Below, one piece after another: positions 10,901-12,778 of a stretch of 46,154 nt of DNA. The notes under the pieces are model-generated. The model ran no database searches and was not told where the DNA came from. It saw nothing but the letters and a program-made list of their open reading frames with translations. Position 1 is the stretch's first letter. Every line of letters starts with the position of its first letter. Source of the DNA: a virus; the IMG/VR virus record IMGVR_UViG_3300037586_004497, positions 1-46,154 of that record. One strand, 5' to 3'. Position numbers and translations under genes: made by a program.

Positions 10901-11800
10901 ATGAAACATCTCGGTAAAAATGGTTTATCAATGAGCCAAGCACAATCAATTAGTAATCTTTGTAATCAAAGAGCAATTGAAATTGACAACACTATTAGAA
11001 ACTTTAATGTAGTTTCTAAAACTGTAAAGATTGATAGAGAAATTTATGAATTACAGGAAGCTAATCCAATTAGTGATGCAATTGAACTGTTAGAAGAAAA
11101 GGGAAAGCTTCACGGTACTCAAGCATTCTTAATGGAAGCTATTAAATCTAAAGAAAATTTATTAGATTCTATTAGAAATGAAAATCTTAATTTATCAGCA
11201 TTTACTATGCCTGAAAGAACAGAGATTGATATGCCTAATTATGCACATGAACTCACTGAAGAATTTGGTTGGAGTAAATTATCTGCTAAAGAATATGCAG
11301 AGTATTTAGATGTTGAAAGTGCAGCTGCTCATTACGGTCAATTTATCCATAAATTAGGTAAGTTAACTGCATTAAGAAATATTTTGGCTAAGAATACTCC
11401 TCTTGAATGGGAAGTAGTTGAAGAGGGTAAGAAAACTCCTGTGAAGGTAGTGAAACATCATACTCCTTCTGAATTAGCTAAATTGCACGAGAATATTGCT
11501 AAATTGCATGGATTAAAAGAGCAGAGAGTTAATTACTTTAAAGCAAAGGTTAAAAATTTAACCAGTGCAGAGAATGTCCTTATTCATAAGAACAATTCTG
11601 TATTAAAGCAAGCTTTTGATACACTTTGTATTGAAGATAATGCAGAATATGAAAGTGCTTTGAAAGCATATCATAATGAAGTCTCAATTGCTAGATCTGA
11701 ATTTGAAGCTGATCGTGAGCAAAGACTTAATGATGCAAGTAAACTGCGTATAGTGGTTGACTCAAGATTTCAAGGTACTGTTGATGTTTTAATAGCATAG
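10901..11800 (+). CDS. Helical/coiled-coil protein, unknown
   Basis: This is a 299-aa protein, almost wholly helical: SISNLCNQRAIEIDNTIRNF, then EANPISDAIELLEEKGKLHG, then HTPSELAKLHENIAKLHGLK and EVSIARSEFEADREQRLNDA. No catalytic motif and no membrane segment are seen. It is the largest protein of this early region and is flanked on both sides by candidate structured RNAs, so an RNA-linked role should be tested, though nothing in the sequence proves it. Confidence 0.6.
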   Translation: MKHLGKNGLSMSQAQSISNLCNQRAIEIDNTIRNFNVVSKTVKIDREIYELQEANPISDAIELLEEKGKLHGTQAFLMEAIKSKENLLDSIRNENLNLSAFTMPERTEIDMPNYAHELTEEFGWSKLSAKEYAEYLDVESAAAHYGQFIHKLGKLTALRNILAKNTPLEWEVVEEGKKTPVKVVKHHTPSELAKLHENIAKLHGLKEQRVNYFKAKVKNLTSAENVLIHKNNSVLKQAFDTLCIEDNAEYESALKAYHNEVSIARSEFEADREQRLNDASKLRIVVDSRFQGTVDVLIA

Positions 11801-11819
11801 GAATCTTAACATTATAGGT

Positions 11820-11860
11820 GAGCAGAGGATAGGCATAAGCTGATTCCTTTGCTCTTTATA
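11820..11860 (+). terminator. Hairpin after the 10901 gene
   Basis: GAGCAGAGGA (11820-11829) pairs with TCCTTTGCTC (11845-11854), ten pairs with one wobble, around a 15-base loop, followed by TTTATATT. It may be a terminator or an RNA-processing stem ahead of the large structured RNA. Confidence 0.5.
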
Positions 11861-11861
11861 T

Positions 11862-12142
11862 TGAATAGTAGAGTTTACTTTATATATTCTTCGGGATATA
11901 TAGAGTTGTCTGGTCAGACGTAAAATGGCTTAAACTAAAAAGATAAAATAATAACTAAATTTTATACCGCTCAACTTCACTAAACAAACACTGAGATAGA
12001 ACTCATAGATTAGACAAGTTACTGTAGCTTTGCTACTCCTGGCTAATCACATCTAGACTGTGTTATTGTTTTTGCCTTTGTGGAAGTTGAGGTCTTTGAC
12101 TTGGTTTTTGATTTTCTTTTTATCTACGCACTCTACTATTCA
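11862..12142 (+). ncRNA. Candidate 281-nt structured RNA closed by a perfect 13-bp stem
   Basis: TGAATAGTAGAGT (11862-11874) pairs perfectly with ACTCTACTATTCA (12130-12142). Inside lie a UUCG tetraloop hairpin, TATATATTC-TTCG-GGATATATA (11881-11902); a perfect 9-bp long-range stem CTCAACTTC/GAAGTTGAG (11970-11978 with 12083-12091); within it GATTAG/CTAATC (12008-12013 with 12043-12048); and at the tip GTAGC-TTT-GCTAC (12024-12036). The nested pairings are mutually compatible. There is no credible gene. No known RNA class was recognised. Confidence 0.65.
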
Positions 12143-12187
12143 GTAACTGTACTTTAAAAAAATATGAATTAAATAAATAAATTAAAA

Positions 12188-12778
12188 ATGAATTATTATA
12201 AAAAAATAGTAAATGGACAACGTAATGGTATTTATAAAGGTCATACTTTAAAAGTATTTAAAGATGATCAATCATTAGGATTTCATAATTCATATTATGA
12301 TATACATATATGTGAATTTTATAATGTTAAACGTGATCTATATAATATAAGTATTGATAAACAAATTTCTTCACCTAAATGGCTAAGTAATATATTAAAT
12401 CAACATCCTTTAGATCAAACTAGAATACGTTTAGCAACAGATATCTTTATAGATGATACTGAATATACATTAACATATACAGCAAATGAATATACTAGAA
12501 GTTTTCATTTATTTAGTTATGAAAAAAAAGGTTTATTGTATAAAGATTCTACTGAACATATACAATTAATTAAAGAAATAAATAGCATATGGTCTTTTAT
12601 ACACAAAAAACTTAAAAAATTAAATAATACAGCTTTTGATACTTTTTGTACCTTTAGCGATATAGATCAATCATATATATTACCTCCAGAACTTTTTAAT
12701 TTTAAAGTAAAAAAAGATAAAAAAAATAAAAAAGATAAAAAAGAAAATATAGTAATAAATGATGATTTACCTTTTTAA
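12188..12778 (+). CDS. Hypothetical protein with Lys-rich tail
   Basis: This is a 196-aa protein, rich in Tyr, Ile and Asn, starting MNYYKKIVNGQRNGIYKGHT. Residues about 50-130 alternate short strands. The tail is a poly-Lys/Asp stretch (residues 170-185) followed by acidic NDDLPF. The DDLPF ending resembles protein-interaction tips of SSB-type proteins, but no OB fold could be recognised. Leader AAATAAATAAATTAAAA. Confidence 0.6.
   Translation: MNYYKKIVNGQRNGIYKGHTLKVFKDDQSLGFHNSYYDIHICEFYNVKRDLYNISIDKQISSPKWLSNILNQHPLDQTRIRLATDIFIDDTEYTLTYTANEYTRSFHLFSYEKKGLLYKDSTEHIQLIKEINSIWSFIHKKLKKLNNTAFDTFCTFSDIDQSYILPPELFNFKVKKDKKNKKDKKENIVINDDLPF

Follow-up and report, generated by a model that had tools for sequence, protein, structure and literature searches.

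A conserved structured RNA downstream of an orphan protein gene in large uncultivated phages

Introduction

The packaging RNA (pRNA) of phage phi29 acts as a working part of a phage machine, and the proteins TRAP and HutP bind regularly spaced short motifs on unpaired RNA. In type III toxin-antitoxin systems, a tandem-repeat antitoxin RNA lies upstream of a gene for a ToxN-fold endoribonuclease. Large structured phage RNAs are few. GOLLD and ROOL are large structured phage non-coding RNAs, often found near tRNA islands, that remain without a known function, and OLE is a large bacterial RNA that works with proteins and measures 577 nt in the example studied (PMC12286853).

The RNA described here resembles GOLLD and ROOL as a large structured phage non-coding RNA, near tRNA islands in many genomes though not in one clade or in the window, but it differs from them in length (~333 nt, against >800 nt for many GOLLD), in lacking any Rfam match and in being tied to one protein family. 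The likeness to OLE lies in a large RNA working with proteins, here with a partner that is only inferred; OLE, however, is bacterial and not viral, and our RNA has no Rfam match and a partner without a relative among the families of the libraries searched. It also differs from phi29 pRNA, with no Rfam match and no packaging gene among the neighbours scanned. Two tracts with a period of six bases recall the regular short motifs bound by TRAP or HutP, which we treat as a lead only: the spacing here is 6 nt, a purine and a U are what is conserved, and neither Pfam nor PDB searches matched the partner to TRAP or HutP.

Materials and Methods

The source is IMG/VR virus record IMGVR_UViG_3300037586_004497, all 46,154 bases of which were analysed as the window; positions are in window coordinates, and the partner gene and all parts of the RNA are on the + strand. 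Covariation was scored on 74 non-redundant copies by a G-test with average-product correction at a threshold of E < 0.05. Null alignments were simulated on a FastTree tree, over which the observed substitutions were redistributed; the procedure is our own implementation of the R-scape idea and not R-scape itself. As a circularity control, a covariance model restricted to the P3-P4-P5 core was built with the window left out, from 21 other sequences. Counts of pair cells, including G-U and A-C cells, come from related sequences that are not independent and are indicative only; the genomes in the survey of tRNA distances are likewise related, and their combined probability should not be taken literally. 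The literature search covered open-licence papers only.

Results

Boundaries and fold of the RNA

A first-pass annotation had proposed, at 11862-12142 (281 nt), a structured non-coding RNA that fitted no recognised class. Its reading as a structured RNA is borne out by homologues, by covariation of the closing stem in them (the lack of which it had named as grounds for refutation) and by the absence of a coding signal, and we consider the observation confirmed and its interpretation supported, albeit with no transcript evidence. The boundary had been drawn slightly short. The whole domain spans 11816-12148 (~333 nt), with the nhmmer match beginning at 11816, the ends AGGU and AACU, and an outermost pair, A11816-U12148, that covaries and is canonical in 73 of 74 sequences. 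This interval is free of genes; a 299-aa gene (10901-11800) precedes it, and a 196-aa ORF (12188-12778) without relatives in the viral collection follows. Directly after the RNA (window ~12000) the G+C content drops from ~0.31 to 0.23 and stays low onward through the replication genes. Elsewhere in the window, the DNA polymerase has similar counterparts in many phages, Cellulophaga phi14:2 of the Crassvirales among them, and a 1246-aa ORF at 42298-46038 matches the ADP-ribosyltransferase domain of polyvalent proteins, but only below threshold.

The outer helix, P0, joins AGGU (11816-11819) to AACU (12145-12148) with one G-A mismatch, and its outermost pair covaries among A-U, U-A, G-C and G-U. 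It is followed by H0, a 10-bp hairpin at 11820-11854 (11820-11829 with 11845-11854) with five significantly covarying pairs and a strongly conserved apical part of the GCAYAAGC type; both belong to the RNA and had been missed. The 13-bp closing stem reported earlier (11862-11874 with 12130-12142) is exact, and with its neighbouring pairs it becomes the 15-bp P1 (11860-11874 with 12130-12144), present in 74 of 74 sequences with a length of 8 to 19 bp, zero to three mismatches, extensive compensatory change and six significant pairs. The nested elements described earlier are all present, the 9-bp and 6-bp stems being conserved and covarying while the UUCG-capped hairpin (P2, 11877-11906, 13 pairs in the minimum free energy fold) is lineage-specific, in a length-variable region that cannot be aligned across relatives.

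The 9-bp stem is the long-range helix P3, CTCAACTTC/GAAGTTGAG (11970-11978 with 12083-12091), with changes on both strands at 8 of its 9 pairs and with three significant pairs. A conserved ACCG lies 5' of its 5' strand (CUCAACUUC), and its 3' strand (GAAGUUGAG) runs into a near-invariant GUCUUUG. Between the two strands, the P4/P5 arm (11990-12062) carries the CUGAGAUAGAACUC motif, the conserved and covarying 6-bp P5 stem (GATTAG/CTAATC, 12008-12013 with 12043-12048), a conserved ACARGUUA internal loop and an apical hairpin at 12024-12036; the base of P4 shows some mispairing or a shift when the window is aligned to the covariance model. Near-invariant in most clades are the CUGAGAUAGAACUC motif, the ACAGGUUA / AAUUGG internal loop and GGUCUUUG after P3. 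One clade (L036, L050, L054, L057, L058, L064, L074, L077, L079, L080 and L081) has another hairpin, of the GUGGGGUUU...AAAACGACCAC type, in place of the CUGAGAUAGAACUC motif and keeps the remaining RNA. Most of the apical arm is lost in L066 (5603-5707), so the arm can be shortened.

Covariation and strand

The minimum free energy of the stretch is -74.4 kcal/mol, compared with -52.3 +/- 4.3 for shuffles (z = -5.1, with 0 of 200 as good). Folding is also favourable on the reverse strand (z = -4.5), so the strand cannot be assigned from energy alone. Across the 74 copies, 18 pairs covary significantly (six in P1, five in H0, three each in P3 and P5 and one in P0), each of them canonical in 61 to 74 of the sequences. 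A pair count on 21 sequences gave 94.8% against 86.3% after shuffling and 58 double-change cells against 16.5, with double changes at 17 of 30 pairs compared with 8.3 in shuffles, and this signal collapses when the partner strand is slid. In H0 and P1 together, G-U cells far outnumber A-C cells (138 against 39), which indicates selection on the + strand RNA.

Homologues and distribution

Searching with the upstream protein yielded 80 viral loci (40-51% identity), nearly all with a gap of ~350 nt after the gene. A profile of 25 such gaps, the window being among the seeds, recovered 131 RNA copies in viral contigs, 74 of them non-redundant. By a separate route, a scan for the motif CTGAGATAGAACTC gave 119 loci, of which 51 have the full RNA. 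The held-out covariance model detected the window at 88.9 bits (E = 4e-17), along with other members not used in building it, at E-values down to 1e-11. Exactly one copy was present in each of 20 large viral records (20 of 20; 102-365 kb); many large uncultivated phages carry this RNA, once in each genome.

Phage phi14:2, despite its related polymerase, has no copy of the RNA. INPHARED gave no relative when searched with the protein or, by blastn, with the RNA of one relative, so on this search the pair would be invisible to current annotation; plasmid collections held no relative of the partner protein. Prokaryote assemblies gave only two protein matches, both on MAG contigs that also carry the RNA and that may be viral contigs binned with bacteria. 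Beside one RNA copy lies a CHU_C type IX secretion domain, from which we infer that the hosts, as this neighbour suggests, are Bacteroidota.

Period-6 tracts

Flanking the 3' strand of P3 are two tracts with a purine, mostly G, at each sixth base, a U four bases later and variable positions between. Tract 1 (12062-12080) has G at 12062, 12068, 12074 and 12080, as judged from column frequencies. Tract 2 (12092-12127) is U-rich with an RNNNUN period, has G at 12092, 12098, 12104 and 12110 and ends in the family's CUAY; the G frequency is 0.84 at phase 0 and 0-0.08 at the other phases, and the periodicity is individually non-random in 72 of 74 sequences (p<0.05). The consensus structures contain no consistent partner strand for tract 2 or for most of tract 1. 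An encoded peptide, suggested by an open GNN-UUU frame in the period-6 tract, was rejected along with a small protein-coding gene more generally, as an in-frame ATG occurs in only 5 of 74 sequences and the 31- or 32-nt spacing between tracts breaks the frame. We also rejected base-pairing between tract 2 and the partner mRNA (longest match 8.0 nt, against 8.1 nt in codon-shuffled controls). We tentatively infer that a repeated or oligomeric protein surface could bind the tracts as an array, a reading that we think may well be wrong; that their spacing reflects wrapping on such a surface is speculation.

The partner protein

The gene at 10901-11800 encodes a 299-aa protein of an orphan family with the motifs GLSxSQAQSxSNLCxQ, GQFIH and VNYFKAKVKN. 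The RNA is present at 79 of 80 protein loci, the exception (L033) being a contig that ends at the gene's end. Conversely, a homologue of the gene lies upstream of all 51 RNAs found by the motif alone and at 73 of 74 non-redundant loci; the only copy without a full upstream gene (L187) starts 132 nt before the RNA. What had been read simply as a non-coding RNA is, with its upstream hairpin included, half of a conserved RNA-protein gene pair. Protein identity across the set is 38-97%, protein and RNA distances correlate at r = 0.72 (null maximum 0.18), and no other neighbour is common to more than 19 of 74 loci.

No convincing relative of the protein was found in Pfam, PHROG or PDB. Its AlphaFold2 model (pLDDT 86.7) shows a helix / two-strand / helix unit twice; Foldseek gave one full-length match, to an uncharacterised uncultured-phage protein, and nothing significant against the PDB. 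The protein is acidic (net -6) and has no known RNA-binding fold.

The RNA follows the gene on the same strand in all loci and starts 4-22 nt past the stop codon in most, as would be expected of a cis-acting element of the gene's 3' untranslated region, for example in autoregulation or mRNA stability, with no separate role in trans. We nonetheless regard this as improbable, if the foremost of the alternatives. Some loci have gaps of 130-600 nt between gene and RNA, and in others genes of 177 and 468 aa intervene. L080 and L066 keep both the partner and the RNA despite intervening genes, which argues against a simple 3' untranslated element. The complementarity of tract 2 to the gene, no greater than in the codon-shuffled controls, and the size of the multi-helix fold, which would be unusual for such an element, also speak against it. 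The intervening 468-aa protein of L080 (5023-6429) has many tandem EYTYDERGN-type repeats. A promoter hidden in the 3' end of the gene was not supported, with no marked rise in synonymous constraint and sigma-70-like sites at or below shuffle level. U-runs follow the AACU end in only 30 of 74 copies, and a terminator-defined 3' end thus fits only part of the family.

tRNA islands and known RNA classes

At many loci the gene pair sits inside or next to a tRNA island. Predicted tRNAs occur in the flanks of 25 of 48 loci, with up to 22 in one locus. Among the tRNAs listed, the nearest lies within 3.4 kb of the RNA in 11 of 16 genomes and is far away in G010, G013, G014 and G018, which form one clade. 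ARAGORN found no tRNA gene in the window, and a tRNA or tmRNA detectable by that program is excluded there. At three loci (L051 5279, L065 1883 and L066 5761) no more than a few dozen bases separate the 3' end of the RNA from the start of a tRNA gene, which suggests a shared transcript cut by tRNA-processing enzymes. In relatives of the phage, ARAGORN predicted tRNAs with cta and tta anticodons (L020 6088-6162 and L056 3834-3911) that are possible stop-codon suppressors. Directly after the RNA of L080 (6792-7349) is a phage peptide deformylase with a SEC-C motif.

The lack of a recognised class in the first-pass annotation also holds. None of 4227 Rfam families reached threshold at the RNA, the best sub-threshold matches being at chance level also with relaxed E-values; self-splicing introns, ribozymes, RNase P, 6S, riboswitches and the other known classes among these families are thus without a match, as is a phi29-type pRNA. 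The GOLLD, ROOL and OLE covariance models had no match at gathering score in the window, and an Rfam scan of the loci of six relatives matched only tRNAs. A ToxIN-like type III toxin-antitoxin system was rejected, since the RNA lies downstream and does not consist of one tandemly repeated unit, and since the partner lacks a Pfam match.

The RNA might still be an oligomerising machine made of RNA alone, as GOLLD or ROOL, with the protein a linked, non-binding partner. Phage origin, a tRNA-island neighbourhood (here in several lineages), unpaired linker-like tracts and an ornate fold are common to all three (PMC12286853). We judge this doubtful in the face of the complete co-occurrence with one protein, whereas ROOL has no known protein partner (PMC12286853), and of a length of ~330 nt where many GOLLD exceed 800. 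Invariant bases are dense in the internal loops, as they might be in a ribozyme or a degenerate self-splicing intron, yet no gene is interrupted and no Rfam intron or ribozyme family matched even at relaxed thresholds, making this very unlikely. A replication origin or similar DNA element with chance inverted repeats and iterons, for which the inverted and period-6 repeats, AT-richness, single copy and position upstream of replication genes could be cited, is the least credible of all, as the G-U excess in H0 and P1 is not expected of a DNA cruciform and the cumulative GC skew reaches its minimum near 4-6 kb and not at 12 kb.

Discussion

The structure of the RNA, its + strand, its single copy and its co-inheritance with the protein are observed. 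Our best explanation, which we hold to be probable as a whole, goes further: a stable, trans-acting structured RNA would be made from the + strand just downstream of the partner gene and fold so that P0, H0 and P1 meet in a junction, with the long arm P3-P4-P5 and the two period-6 U-rich tracts. It would most likely assemble with the neighbouring protein into a ribonucleoprotein serving a core function of these large phages. Direct binding of RNA and protein is likewise probable, as an inference made without binding data; synteny and shared phylogeny alone do not prove binding. Against the explanation as a whole stand the absence of transcript evidence, the acidity of the protein, its lack of a known RNA-binding fold, the failure of the tRNA association in one clade and the lack of a tRNA gene in the window. 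A role around host translation or takeover is inferred only from the tRNA-island neighbourhood, and we consider it unlikely on present evidence.

Both the RNA class and the protein family appear to be undescribed in the libraries searched, and no report of either was found in the open-licence literature. The constant upstream protein points to an undescribed RNA-protein machine of phages. On balance, and with only modest confidence, we favour an undescribed viral ribonucleoprotein, in which a single-copy RNA with a period-6 binding tract and a protein of orphan fold would form a core component of phages of ~100 to 365 kb. The RNA represents a separate class with a fixed protein partner, which offers a direct biochemical handle. 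That it persists in single copy in genomes of widely differing size suggests an indispensable function in these phages.
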